15,844 nucleotides of DNA from Candidatus Sumerlaeota bacterium (GCA_007136585.1 SLGR01000220.1:1-15844); one strand, 5' to 3'. Counted from the first letter of the stretch, positions 1 to 4,251 are shown. A program made the numbers and translations. The notes: generated by a model from the sequence alone, not told the origin.

Positions 1-1121
1 AAGGTGTATCCCAGAACATCCAGGTCGCCCTCAAACTCAACCTCATCCTCTTCCGGGTCCCCTACCTCGTCAAGAGGGACGGTGCTCGCGTACTTTAACT
101 CGTCAGAATCGGCGCAATCATAGGATATGTGAGGGTTTCCTGCAGTATCAAGAGCGAGAGACATCCTGCCCGTATCCTCGCTCTCTACAGTCTCTGTCTC
201 CCACTCCCCGGCTGATCCGTAGGCGTACTTCAGACTCATAACCTGATTATGGCGCGCGCGGTAGGCTATATGTATACTATCGTTTGAATCCATCGCCGCG
301 GAGCCCCACTGATCCCAGTTATCAACCTCCTCAACCTCCCAGTCTCCGTCCGTAAGCACCGCGTATTTCAGGCTGCTTCCGCGCGAGTAAACTATATGGG
401 GGGTATCGGAGGAGTCTATAAGGATTTCGCTTGACATAAAAGAAGTGTCCGCGGGATCGTCAATATCGGTCTCGACCCATTCACTCCCATCGAAATAGGC
501 ATAAACAAGCTGCATATCAGGAAAACTCTCTTCGTGGTAATAGGAGATATGCGGGTTATCGTCACTGTCAAATGCAAGGGATATACCGGATATCTGGGCC
601 CGGTCATTTATCTGCGAGGGGGGGACGTTGCCGTTTGGACCCTGCTTATGGGCGTACTTAAGTCCTTCGTTTCTGTATGCTATACCTGGATCTCCGTCAC
701 TATCAATGGCTATTGACGGGTCCATACCGTGATCTCCGTCAACAATATCAACCTCCCACTCGGTCCCGTCATAATGCGCATATGAAATTTCTGAAGGCGA
801 TTCTGAAGCTCCGCGATAGGCTATATGCGGAAGCCCGTCGGAGTCAAGAACCATTGATATATCGGAACCGGAATGCAGAGTTCCGGCCGCCACCTCCTTA
901 ACCCACTGGTTTCCGTCCCAGCGGGCATAATTTAAGTTAAGTTCGTTATCGCTGTAGGCGATATGCGGGTTTCCCGCCCCATCCACCCCTATAGCGTTAT
1001 AGGTTCCGACAAAATCCCCTGAATCCACCCCGGAGATATTCCACCGCGCAGATGCTCCTGAGACCATTCCCATAGTTAAGATCCCCGCCGCCATAGCCGG
1101 TATTATAAACTGTTTTCTCAT
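1..1121 (-). CDS. Secreted seven-repeat beta-propeller-like protein, C-terminus beyond window
   Basis: I translated this directly: the frame is open from the ATG at 1121-1119 to the left edge, about 373 codons without a stop, so the C-terminus is missing. Residues 1-25 form a signal peptide (basic start, hydrophobic core, cleavage after ASA), so the product is exported. The rest is seven degenerate repeats of about 43-50 residues. Each follows the pattern: hydrophobic strand, DSDG-like turn, PHIAY or PHISY, a variable loop, LKYA, then a G-x-W strand ending in VD/VE. Seven such repeats suggest a seven-bladed propeller. The PHIAY/LKYA repeat is familiar from secreted bacterial and archaeal proteins without a defined reaction, and I see no catalytic motif. 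The last visible part is very acidic (EEDEVEFEGD) and may begin another domain. A clear ribosome site (GGAGGG, 1125-1130) precedes the start. Function unknown; binding or surface display is an inference. Confidence 0.85.
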   Translation of the reverse strand, partial: MRKQFIIPAMAAGILTMGMVSGASARWNISGVDSGDFVGTYNAIGVDGAGNPHIAYSDNELNLNYARWDGNQWVKEVAAGTLHSGSDISMVLDSDGLPHIAYRGASESPSEISYAHYDGTEWEVDIVDGDHGMDPSIAIDSDGDPGIAYRNEGLKYAHKQGPNGNVPPSQINDRAQISGISLAFDSDDNPHISYYHEESFPDMQLVYAYFDGSEWVETDIDDPADTSFMSSEILIDSSDTPHIVYSRGSSLKYAVLTDGDWEVEEVDNWDQWGSAAMDSNDSIHIAYRARHNQVMSLKYAYGSAGEWETETVESEDTGRMSLALDTAGNPHISYDCADSDELKYASTVPLDEVGDPEEDEVEFEGDLDVLGYT

Positions 1122-1219: not shown

Positions 1220-1675
1220 TTATTCTTCAGTAAGAAAGAACCCCGTCCTGGAGCTCTCCCTCTCACCGGTAAAGCTTACGGCCTTGTAGTAATAAGTCGT
1301 TCCGCCCTGGAGTCCTGTCAGGGTAAAGCTGTGGTTGAGTCTATCTTCCGTGGAAGCCTTTAGGTTTCCGTAGTCGGGGGTCAGTCCGTAGCGGATCCTG
1401 CTCATGGACTCTATCTCAGTCCTCCAGCTTACGACGGCTTCTTCGGACGTTGTCGTGACTTCAAGGTCTCTTATCTCCAGGGCCTCTTCTTCCCTTTCCC
1501 GCTTCTCTCTCTCACTCCTCTCTTTCTCTTTCAGCACTTTTTCGTCAAGCTCCTCGACCCTTCCGCGTATCGTCCCTATACTTGAGAACCCTATATCAAC
1601 CGCCTCCGCGTCTGGGACAGGTAAGAGAGCAGCAAGGGCCAGAGAGGATATAATAAGAAACAAACCCCGGTTCAT
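1220..1675 (-). CDS. Exported charged-helix plus fibronectin type III protein
   Basis: A 151-residue exported protein. Residues 1-25 look like a signal peptide (cleavage near DAEA). The mature protein begins with a short hydrophobic segment and then RVEELDEK (39-46). A long, highly charged Lys/Glu/Arg helix follows to about residue 65, probably a coiled coil. Residues 69-150 look like one fibronectin type III beta-sandwich, with VVSWRTE, an SRIRYGLTPDYG stretch, and TLTGLQGGTTYYYKAVS near the end. That arrangement is typical of the Fn3-like domains of purple acid phosphatases and cell-surface proteins, but no catalytic domain is attached. Its ATG overlaps the stop of the upstream barrel gene by four bases (ATGA), and I see no Shine-Dalgarno site, so translation is probably coupled. 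The RVEEL motif recurs at the same place in the protein at 2746-4251. It may be a periplasmic or surface partner of the barrel; this is inference. Confidence 0.8.
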   Translation of the reverse strand: MNRGLFLIISSLALAALLPVPDAEAVDIGFSSIGTIRGRVEELDEKVLKEKERSEREKREREEEALEIRDLEVTTTSEEAVVSWRTEIESMSRIRYGLTPDYGNLKASTEDRLNHSFTLTGLQGGTTYYYKAVSFTGERESSRTGFFLTEE

Positions 1676-2169
1676 GGCAGGTTAAAGTAACGGTTCAGCG
1701 TTATATTTACAGCAAATGCAAAATCTCCGAGCGATATTTCCGTTGAGCGGTCCCGGAGGTAAATATACTGAGGCCCGAAATCAAGCTCCAGGCAGAGTCT
1801 CTCTGTTATGAAATACTCCCCCCCAAGGAAGAACCCTCCCAGGTACCCGCCCCCGCGGGTCTCCTCACCCTTAAAGTTAAAGTAGAGGAACTCCCACCCG
1901 GCCAGGGTCTTTATCCCTCCTCCGCCCAGCTGGAAATACCGGTACCCTCTCAGCCCCCCGGCGGTTATATCATCCGCAAGCAGAATACGGGGAGCTATGG
2001 CGTACTCGGCTGTGGAGAAATACTTAAACCCCGCCCCGGGATAGCTGAGGAAAAGCCCCCAGGACCCTGACTTGAAACCGCACCCGGCAAAAGAGGAAGC
2101 GGCGGGAAGAAGCGCGGCGGAAACGAGAACAATCCTTAATAATCTTTTAAACGCGGTAAATTTGAGCAT
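1672..2169 (-). CDS. Small outer-membrane beta-barrel protein
   Basis: A 165-residue protein with a basic N-terminus, a hydrophobic signal segment (about 8-28) and a mature part of alternating polar/hydrophobic, aromatic- and glycine-rich strands. Examples are GLFLSYPGAGFKYF, GWEFLYFNFKG, LGGFFLGGEYFITERLCLELDFGPQYIYL and AVNITLNRYF. Size and composition fit an eight-stranded outer-membrane barrel. FAGC (27-30) is a weak lipobox candidate, so a lipoprotein is not excluded. It is a paralogue of the divergent gene at 2276-2749. Over the best block (residues 113-140) I count 15 identities in 28, including LGGEY, the ER pair and DFGP. No upstream ribosome site is visible; the ATG directly follows an AT-rich promoter-like tract, so the mRNA may be leaderless. 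It is first in a two-gene unit with the Fn3 gene. Transport or structural role unknown. Confidence 0.75.
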   Translation of the reverse strand: MLKFTAFKRLLRIVLVSAALLPAASSFAGCGFKSGSWGLFLSYPGAGFKYFSTAEYAIAPRILLADDITAGGLRGYRYFQLGGGGIKTLAGWEFLYFNFKGEETRGGGYLGGFFLGGEYFITERLCLELDFGPQYIYLRDRSTEISLGDFAFAVNITLNRYFNLP

Positions 2170-2178
2170 ATTATACTA

Positions 2179-2209
2179 TTTATATTACAAATATTTTTAC
2201 GGCAGGCAA
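2179..2209 (-). promoter_or_regulatory. Possible promoter for the minus-strand barrel/Fn3 pair
   Basis: On the minus strand, TTGCCT (2209-2204) lies 16 bases from TAATAT (2187-2182) and 19 from TATAAA (2184-2179). Either -10 would start transcription within a few bases of the ATG at 2169, giving an almost leaderless message. The tract is very A+T-rich, so the exact boxes are uncertain. Confidence 0.35.
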
Positions 2210-2216
2210 ATAGCTC

Positions 2217-2246
2217 TTGACCAGAATATAATTATATTTGTATACT
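2217..2246 (+). promoter_or_regulatory. Sigma70-type promoter for the plus-strand barrel and its partner
   Basis: TTGACC (2217-2222) and TATACT (2241-2246) are separated by 18 bases, each one mismatch from consensus. They are placed to give a leader of about 23 bases before the ATG at 2276. It sits in the 106-base divergent region back to back with the candidate promoter of the minus-strand paralogue, so both modules could share regulation. Confidence 0.65.
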
Positions 2247-2275
2247 TTGCCAGATTTTAGAAATTTAAGATAATA

Positions 2276-2749
2276 ATGAGAAATATCATAAAAGCTGTTT
2301 TAGCGCCGGTACTTGCCGGCCTTATTGTCTTTCCGGCAGCCGCGGATCCCGGCTCTGCCATAGAAAGAACCTCTCTGGGGCTCGGATACCCCTACATATC
2401 CGTAAGAAACGCCCTGACGCCCCGGGTCTCGGTGGAGGGAAGGTTCGCTTTTTCGGATGAGATTCAGATATACGGGGCCCGGGGGTACTATACCTTAAGG
2501 CAGGTGGAGAGACTCTCACTCTTATCCGGTCTGGAGGTTGATTTCGTCTCTTTTAAGACCGGAAGCGTCTCCGGGTACGGGCTTATAGCCTACCCTTTCC
2601 TGGGGGGAGAGTACCGGGTAGCGGAGAGGATATCTCTGCTGATGGATTTCGGCCCTGCCTTTATACACTTAAAGGAGAATGATTTTTCCCTTACGCTTGA
2701 CGGACTGGAGTGGGTGGTCAACCTGGGGGTATATTATCATTTCAGATGA
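2276..2749 (+). CDS. Small outer-membrane beta-barrel protein, paralogue of the divergent one
   Basis: A 157-residue exported protein. Residues 1-23 are a signal peptide with likely cleavage after AAA. The mature part has strand-like segments with alternating residues (TSLGLGYPYISVRN, RVSVEGRFAFS, QIYGARGYYTL, LSGLEVDFVSFK) and ends WVVNLGVYYHF, the aromatic end usual for outer-membrane barrels. About eight strands fit the length. The block PFLGGEYRVAERISLLMDFGP (about 107-127) matches the equivalent block of the divergent barrel at 1672-2169. The wider order of strands also matches, so the two are duplicates that have diverged considerably. The gene is read from the promoter at 2217-2246; no Shine-Dalgarno site precedes the ATG. 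Its TGA overlaps the next ATG by four bases, so it is coupled to the following large secreted protein. It resembles OmpW/OmpX-like barrels in size only. Confidence 0.75.
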   Translation: MRNIIKAVLAPVLAGLIVFPAAADPGSAIERTSLGLGYPYISVRNALTPRVSVEGRFAFSDEIQIYGARGYYTLRQVERLSLLSGLEVDFVSFKTGSVSGYGLIAYPFLGGEYRVAERISLLMDFGPAFIHLKENDFSLTLDGLEWVVNLGVYYHFR

Positions 2750-4251
2750 ATAAACACGCGCCAAGGATAATTTTTCTGAGTCTCATACTGGGATTGTCCG
2801 GTTCCGGAAGGCTCCTCTCTTCAATAAGGTTCGGACTCCCCTCCGCCGTAAAGAGCAGGGTTGAGGAACTTGAGGAAAAACACGCTGAAGAGGCCGCCAG
2901 GCGGAGCGTCACCGAAACCAGAATACTGGGAACGATGAACCCGCTTGATATAGCGGATGCGCGGGCGCTTGTCATAGCGCCGGGTTCCGCGGGGGCGCAG
3001 GGGTTCTTTTCGTTTGACCTGGGCGAGCCGGTAAGCACCCTCTTTAAGATAACCGACGACGGGACAAGCGTGGAGTACAAGGAGGTTACCTATACCAGGA
3101 CCGAAACGGTGCGTATAGAGAACGAGGCGGGCGAGATCGAGGAGCGCGAGGAAGAGATTGATATCACTCAGACTGTCTACCCGGTCGCGATCGTAGACCT
3201 TGATGAGAATTATTTCATAGCCTGTTTTGACGAGGAGGGAGACCTGGGCATTATTGAACATAATTACCTTGTAAGGAAAAACGACGGGGCGGTCTTTGTT
3301 ATGCCCGACTCCCGCCCGCTTACCGGAACACTGCAGCATATCTATATGAATATGTTTGCCAATGAGGATTTCTCCGATTTCATTCAGACCGACGCGGAAG
3401 GAAATATCTATTACCTGGACCCCGTCGAGGTAAACAGGCTCAATATTGATGACCCCGGGAATATAACACACCAGCCGTTGACCCAGGCGAGCAATATACA
3501 CGAAAGAGGAGTTTATAATTACAGGGTAAACAACGCGGGGCATATTAAGTACTTCTACCAGGGGGGAAATAATCTTGCGCTAAGGATACGCTATAACTCC
3601 GACCCCCCTTCTCTGATCACCCTTCCTTCCCCCGGTCAGATGGCTACTTTCTGGCGAGGGTTTGACGGTGAGATATACAGGGAAAGCGGGGGGAATATAC
3701 AGAGGTTAAATGTAATCTCCGGCGACCCTCCGGGGTATGAATTCGAGGATGTTGGAAGTTTAGAGATTTCTGATCCTGATACCGAATACGTATGTTTTGA
3801 GGAACCGTATATTTTCAAGGTAAGAGACTCAACACAGATAATAACGGTCGGTTCTTATCCTAACGGGCAAGGGGACCACCTTCTTGTGGCCGAAGTCTAC
3901 GGCAGCACCAGGACCTTCCGGTTAAGCGACCTGGGAATTTCTTCGATAGGGTTAGGGATAAGCTCCGACAGGTATTATTACATTGCAGGGCTTGACCTTG
4001 CAAGCGCGCCTGTGCTTATAAGGGTTGATCCGGCAACTTACACCCCAGGAGGGCACCATGCCTATGAGACCCTGCTCTCCGGGTATGATATTTACAGGTT
4101 CTCCGTATCCGGAGACGATGTAGTGACTTTTAACGCCGAGAGGCTCTCGCCTCAGTCGATAGTCATAGGGCGCATCTCCGGACCCGGGGAGGACCCGGAG
4201 GTACTTCAAGAGGACGCTCCGCAGGTCCACCAGCTTATCCAGATACAGTAA
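2746..4251 (+). CDS. Large secreted propeller-like protein with N-terminal RVEELEEK helix
   Basis: I chose the ATG at 2746 because it overlaps the barrel stop as ATGA and gives a proper N-terminal signal peptide (residues 1-26, no lipobox Cys). The in-frame ATG at 2710 lies inside the barrel gene and would put 12 extra residues before it. The product has 501 residues. Residues 27-45 repeat the motif seen after the signal peptide of the 1220-1675 protein: I-x-F, then a basic residue and RVEELEEK (38-45), followed by a charged helix to about 60. From about 85 to 480 the protein is beta-rich, with turns such as TDAEGNIYYLD (215-225), VNNAGHIKYFY (261-271), GFDGEIYRESGG (305-316) and SGDDVVTFNAERLSPQ (455-470). 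These suggest irregular propeller blades. Residues 118-142 are an acidic insertion. No enzyme motif is visible. It is the partner of the plus-strand barrel; its function is unknown. Confidence 0.75.
   Translation: MNKHAPRIIFLSLILGLSGSGRLLSSIRFGLPSAVKSRVEELEEKHAEEAARRSVTETRILGTMNPLDIADARALVIAPGSAGAQGFFSFDLGEPVSTLFKITDDGTSVEYKEVTYTRTETVRIENEAGEIEEREEEIDITQTVYPVAIVDLDENYFIACFDEEGDLGIIEHNYLVRKNDGAVFVMPDSRPLTGTLQHIYMNMFANEDFSDFIQTDAEGNIYYLDPVEVNRLNIDDPGNITHQPLTQASNIHERGVYNYRVNNAGHIKYFYQGGNNLALRIRYNSDPPSLITLPSPGQMATFWRGFDGEIYRESGGNIQRLNVISGDPPGYEFEDVGSLEISDPDTEYVCFEEPYIFKVRDSTQIITVGSYPNGQGDHLLVAEVYGSTRTFRLSDLGISSIGLGISSDRYYYIAGLDLASAPVLIRVDPATYTPGGHHAYETLLSGYDIYRFSVSGDDVVTFNAERLSPQSIVIGRISGPGEDPEVLQEDAPQVHQLIQIQ

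Follow-up and report, generated by a model that had tools for sequence, protein, structure and literature searches.

In type B substrates of the type IX secretion system (T9SS), an outer-membrane barrel is thought to anchor the cargo at the cell surface, and an unlinked barrel serves some orphan substrates (PMC9143113, PMC12618676). In Flavobacterium, nine of twelve such substrates adjoin a SprF-like gene, while the three orphans share one unlinked shuttle (PMC12618676). The gene pairs described here, each encoding a small barrel and an exported partner, show a similar organization to the T9SS type B domain with its PorP/SprF-like barrels: the cargo combines a shared tag with a variable body, and the cognate barrel is usually adjacent, with some orphans. 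The T9SS type B tag, however, is a C-terminal domain (CTD) of about 100 residues, whereas the present one is N-terminal and spans about 25. NCBIfam searches gave no match to the T9SS CTD (TIGR04131/TIGR04183) in either partner from the window (the whole 15,844-nucleotide stretch analysed) or in nine other partners. A neighbouring non-partner protein of another locus (L046:8148-10652) matched TIGR04183 at 33 bits over the cut-off, so the CTD test works. The 28 barrels likewise had no match to the PorP/SprF family in NCBIfam and Pfam. Membership of the T9SS was rejected on these two grounds, and the barrel/tag pair is best read as analogous, but unrelated, to the T9SS type B CTD/SprF pairs.

Small exported proteins may also reach the surface in complex with outer-membrane barrels, as shown for RcsF, whose barrels include OmpA (PMC7553776, PMC4942254). 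Unlike the tagged partners, RcsF is a lipoprotein sensor and not a family of cargo proteins, and its barrels are not dedicated neighbours.

Two type V systems also share features with the pairs. Inverse autotransporters (type Ve, intimin/invasin) likewise combine a barrel, a strand/helix linker and an extracellular passenger. Their barrel is 12-stranded and forms a single polypeptide with the passenger; here there are eight strands and separate genes, and type Ve membership was rejected. Two-partner secretion (type Vb) resembles the pairs in the N-terminal recognition region of its cargo and in the adjacent gene for the cognate barrel. In that system TpsB combines 16 strands with POTRA domains, and a beta-helix forms the TPS domain. 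Type Vb membership was also rejected, the window barrels being only 157 and 165 aa long and Pfam searches finding neither POTRA nor TPS domains. No description of the barrel/tag pair was found in the open-access literature, which misses most subscription journals.

Two divergent gene pairs in the window

The window contains two divergent gene pairs (Table 1). Both have the layout proposed in the earlier note, with a barrel gene, a four-base ATGA overlap and an exported partner.

Table 1. Features of the two barrel-partner gene pairs (window coordinates).
Feature	Position	Strand	Description and basis
+ barrel	2276..2749	+	157 aa, 'GYPY' subfamily, signal peptide at about residues 1-23; AlphaFold2 and relatives in other genomes
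+ partner	2746..4251	+	501 aa, ATG at 2746; signal peptide, tag, then about 430 residues of cargo; from ORF
+ tag SSIRFGLPSAVKSRVEELEEKHAEEAAR	2818..2901	+	directly 3' of signal peptide; tag model E 3.8e-11
+ ATGA stop/start overlap, barrel/partner	2746..2749	+	sequence
barrel	1672..2169	-	165 aa, outer-membrane barrel, 'SYPG/NYPG' subfamily; groups with YPG barrels, support 87/92
partner	1220..1675	-	151 aa; signal peptide, tag, charged helix, one PAP_N/Fn3-type domain
tag DIGFSSIGTIRGRVEELDEKVLKEKERS	1514..1597	-	directly 3' of signal peptide; tag model E 2e-8
ATGA stop/start overlap, barrel/partner	1672..1675	-	sequence
Intermodule region, 106 bp, AT-rich	2170..2275	.	sequence; may have a promoter role

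The two barrels are indeed paralogous, being 31% identical along about 150 residues (E 6e-15), and they are the only members of the barrel family found in their own genome, which is 88% complete. The idea of duplicated modules did not hold in the sense of a local duplication, which is ruled out by the split of the two barrels between old subfamilies that span the whole tree. The nearest relative of the + barrel is found in genome G004 (55%), and that of the - barrel is a member of the other subfamily.

The tag lies at the partner N-terminus, just after the signal peptide, and its consensus over about 25 residues is (I/L/F)-x-(F/L)-G-x-x-x-A-(V/I)-x3-(V/I)-x2-(L/M)-x2-K. The earlier note had pointed to a motif shared by both partners at this position. 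When the tag model was trained without this genome, the two partners were its top matches among the 14 ORFs of the window (E 5.8e-12 for the + partner and 1e-5 for the - partner), so the shared motif is not due to chance. The 'RVEELxEK' stretch by which it had been defined is present, but it is only the local form of the wider tag. The minus partner lacks the G of (F/L)-G, the best-conserved tag position.

As for the cargo, the Fn3 domain claimed for the 151-aa partner is indeed of Fn3-type fold, but of the purple-acid-phosphatase-N kind: residues 71-147 matched PF16656 at 38.8 bits over the cut-off, and fn3 remained below its own cut-off. The propeller-like region attributed to the 501-aa partner found no support, since searches of Pfam, NCBIfam and the PDB gave no match for its cargo and its internal periodicity did not exceed that of shuffled sequences. 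Residues 11-157 of this protein match the partner that is linked to the G004 barrel. Elsewhere the window looks ordinary, with GltS-, ABC-F-, NagB-, TamB- and BamA-like genes, as assigned by eye.

Distribution of barrels, tags and cargo

When the - barrel alone was used as query, seven other genomes yielded relatives, of which six belong to the same phylum and one to another, and a tagged exported neighbour flanked these relatives nearly every time. Strong matches to the barrel profile (E below 1e-18) occurred in 15 of 386 genomes, and two further lineages with the barrel came from scanning named genomes. Locus L103 belongs to Candidatus Firestonebacteria RIFOXYA2_FULL_40_8 and L102 to UBA9634. 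A tagged immediate neighbour was present at 28 barrel loci, which represent six or more groups at the phylum level; at one of them, L098, the barrel itself is degraded. Genomes G252, G033, G130 and G198 come from phyla with very few representatives in the collection, 2 to 5 genomes each. In eight pairs the barrel comes first and overlaps its partner by four bases. Other pairs have the barrel first with a short gap, the partner first (L088, L165, L167) or a convergent order (L102), and at L089 three tandem tagged proteins lie 3' of one barrel. Given this variation in order and spacing, the link between barrel and partner is not tied to one coupling arrangement.

Adjacency was assessed by scoring the ORFs at each barrel locus with tag models trained without the lineage under test. 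In 23 of 27 loci the top-scoring ORF was a direct neighbour of the barrel (P about 1e-9 under a simple random-position model), one of these successes, L096, being weak (E 0.11). The four failures were two intact orphan barrels (L047, L085), a barrel at a contig edge (L092), whose orthologue L165 has a partner, and a degenerate barrel (L095). At the genome level, among the 386 genomes, the tag was detected in 13, the strong barrel in 15 and both in 13 (Fisher 2e-22). At E 0.001 the tag was found in none of the 371 genomes lacking a strong barrel match; training was in-sample, which inflates recovery in known lineages and leaves absence elsewhere unaffected. Genomes G120 and G256 have a strong barrel, but only a degenerate, barely recognisable tag.

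Tag matches in 32 genomes were bimodal, with E values either below 5e-5 (30 matches) or above 0.06. Six strong matches outside the training set lay away from the barrels known at that stage, all of them in barrel genomes. One (L139) probably represents the second half of the partner that was split from L092, and another (L138) is on a short contig. The remaining four (L136, L137, L140, L141) have no barrel nearby, and each of their genomes has a barrel elsewhere: L141 (GH3) occurs in G380 together with orphan barrel L085, and L140 (GH114) in G003 together with orphan barrel L047. Tagged proteins without an adjacent barrel, which the earlier note had taken as grounds for refutation, do occur. 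Their restriction to barrel-bearing genomes is the picture expected of pairs acting in trans.

The barrel tree sets the Y-P-G barrels (16) apart from the Y-P-Y barrels (12) with support 87/92, and the window has a member of both. At tag position 19, D is present in 10 of 14 YPG pairs versus 0 of 13 others (Fisher 1.5e-4, kinship ignored). Both subtypes coexist in G000, in G130 and in the G252/G380/G387 group, each with matching tags; for most G033/G180 pairs the match is not clean. The correspondence between tag and barrel subtypes is a lead for specificity and not proof of it, as co-inheritance alone could produce such a match.

Beyond the tag, most partners have nothing in common. The cargo includes enzymes (GH3, GH5, GH26, GH114 and the clostripain Peptidase_C11) and Big_7 (Ig), beta-helix, Glug, LRR plus PQQ propeller, Lcl_C plus PAP_N, BNR_4 and lactonase-like propeller proteins, classes most of which bind outside the cell or act on polymers. 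Since a single barrel family and a single tag go with unrelated cargo, and since their adjacency persists in several phyla despite changes of gene order, the modularity of the pairs is strongly supported. The modular part of the display or export system imagined in the earlier note therefore stands; its docking part draws on a single AlphaFold2 model and on an argument from its confidence values, both presented below.

Barrel fold and predicted docking of the tag

The + barrel was modelled by AlphaFold2 with a mean pLDDT of 94.6 and eight strands. Its best structural matches were OprF (Z 14.8, rmsd 2.5, 119 residues) and OmpA (Z 14.0). It displays the features of 8-stranded OmpA/OprF/OmpW-like barrels, namely a signal peptide, eight antiparallel strands and a C-terminal aromatic residue, and its last strand ends ...GVYYHFR, one residue beyond the aromatic. 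For PF13505 (OMP_b-brl), the + barrel reached 16.6 bits, under the cut-off of 28.7, and the - barrel had no match; among the 28 family members five touched PF13505 (best E 4e-6) and five TIGR04565 (best E 1e-3). No sequence relative of the barrel family was found in the PDB. The fold is predicted with high confidence to be that of an OmpA/OprF-like barrel with eight strands.

Docking was modelled on L103, where barrel and partner lie in one frame. The DNA was read past the TAA of the barrel as a single chain, purely as a modelling device, and the alignment had barrel rows only. In the resulting AlphaFold2 model the barrel strands have a pLDDT of about 96 and a loose linker about 63-73. The tag forms a strand, I-R-L (residues 164-166), followed by a helix (167-193), with pLDDT values of about 79 for block 161-170 and about 96 for block 171-190. 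Lone charged helices commonly receive high pLDDT values. DSSP assigns a strand only where it pairs with another, and since all other strands of the chain belong to the barrel, the predicted partner of the I-x-L segment is the barrel. The pTM of the chain was 0.81, versus 0.62-0.70 expected for a free tag, which would hardly attain such a value; on the assumption that the errors of the + barrel model carry over, the observed pTM corresponds to a mean error of about 3 to 4 Å for the 62 non-barrel residues. This model describes a locus from outside the window, with the partner signal peptide serving as an artificial linker and with a single tag sequence, in cognate combination only. We predict with moderate confidence that the tag docks on the barrel.

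A candidate two-gene envelope anchor and its alternatives

We regard it as fairly probable that the pairs constitute a two-gene envelope anchor, in which the tag docks on its cognate barrel and fixes the cargo to the outer membrane, most likely at the outer face. The 8-stranded barrel would be a dedicated outer-membrane receptor. The partner would be exported by Sec and its signal peptide cleaved, and the new N-terminus would fold as a short strand, I-x-F/L, followed by an amphipathic helix, AVxxxVxxLxxK. Both elements would dock on the cognate barrel, so holding the downstream enzyme, adhesive domain or propeller at the outer membrane. The barrel is too narrow for a folded protein and should therefore hold cargo that crosses by another route, which may be a secretin-based system or passage together with barrel assembly on BAM. 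A search for GspD (TIGR02517) found secretins in 23 of 23 genomes, with and without barrels, and their presence regardless of the barrel does not discriminate as to a type II route.

The main competing explanation, which we consider rather unlikely, is periplasmic tethering: the tag would have its docking site at the inner face, and the cargo would be kept in the periplasm by a protein stand-in for a lipid anchor. The position of the tag directly after the signal peptide is in its favour, since a translocation step would be unneeded, as are the lack of export machinery of its own encoded nearby and the barrels fused to a CsgG-like domain (L048, L052, L096), which carry this domain as a periplasmic add-on. 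The clostripain, Big_7, Glug, Lcl_C, LRR and GH5/GH26 cargo, however, is mostly of extracellular type. In addition, the model of the + barrel would place the invariant Y-P turn at the beta1-beta2 tip, opposite the termini and thus outside. Because of the cargo type and of this turn, we infer that the cargo is probably displayed on the outer face.

It is improbable that the pairs are split inverse autotransporters, in which the barrel and BAM would move the partner out as a hairpin and the tag would be a retained linker, an intimin-like arrangement in two genes. The order of barrel, linker-like strand/helix and passenger does resemble type Ve, and the four-base overlaps suggest coupled synthesis, but eight strands are too few for a helix-filled pore and the POTRA domain is absent. 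Partner-first and convergent orders and several unlinked partners also argue against it. That the pairs are just envelope genes under common regulation, with no physical link between barrel and partner and a tag that is a generic charged coiled coil, seems very improbable. E/K-rich helices are frequent after signal peptides and the tether could have forced the AlphaFold2 contact; yet a specific G-x-x-x-A-V core precedes the tag helix, the tag is missing from genomes without a strong barrel match, and it is kept despite unrelated cargo and changing gene order.

Beyond the anchor itself, we tentatively suggest that the pairs may represent an unclassified form of envelope sorting, in which a roughly 25-residue N-terminal tag unlike known secretion signals, together with dedicated 8-stranded barrels of cognate subtypes, would equip the outer surface of several candidate phyla with interchangeable enzymes and adhesins. 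If so, the tag would permit barrel-attached, probably surface-exposed proteins of uncultured diderm lineages to be read from sequence, and it would account for cargo attachment that involves neither a lipid nor a T9SS domain. The display pair would be very small (about 130 plus 25 residues) and would constitute an independent case, built from unrelated parts, of the T9SS type B/SprF logic. As a T9SS CTD occurs beside L046 but not in the partners, the tag would act as a second route or anchor in those organisms.

Structural matches and fusions of the barrel

In the fold search, both AlphaFold2 barrel models had the same second-best structural match: 9nh2, a component of the Dot/Icm machine of Legionella called "porin III", with Z of 12.7 and 14.6. 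Proteins in which a family barrel is fused C-terminally to a CsgG-like domain were found in two unrelated lineages (see table).

Neighbours of the barrel and tagged-partner genes

The BNR_4-type protein is encoded 98 bases downstream of the minus-strand module, and the tag that follows the partners' signal peptide is absent from this protein, whose gene is incomplete at the contig edge. At L088, a tagged partner has BNR_4 as its cargo. At L094, the tandem trio, of which at least one member is a family barrel, is paired with a tagged lactonase-like propeller. Barrel/tag pairs also adjoin the L046 genes, where the PARCEL-repeat protein carries a T9SS type A sorting domain, and the putative AbiEi/AbiEii-like genes of L049.

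Features at the window and at barrel loci of other genomes
Feature	Location	Strand	Remarks
Exported BNR_4-type protein	window 3-1121	-	cut by contig edge
Three tandem proteins	L094:4175-7547		N-terminal K-x-G-x-V-x-x-G-x-V repeats
CsgG-like domain/barrel fusion	L048:1291-2271		sequence judgement
CsgG-like domain/barrel fusion	L052:878-1834		sequence judgement
CsgG-like domain/barrel fusion	L096:243-1274		PF03783 above cut-off
CsgG-like domain/barrel fusion	L097:4568-5599		sequence judgement
PARCEL-repeat protein and adjoining PorV/PorQ-like gene	L046:8148-11590		TIGR04183 match; PorV/PorQ by eye
AbiEi/AbiEii-like gene pair	L049:2291-3941		by eye
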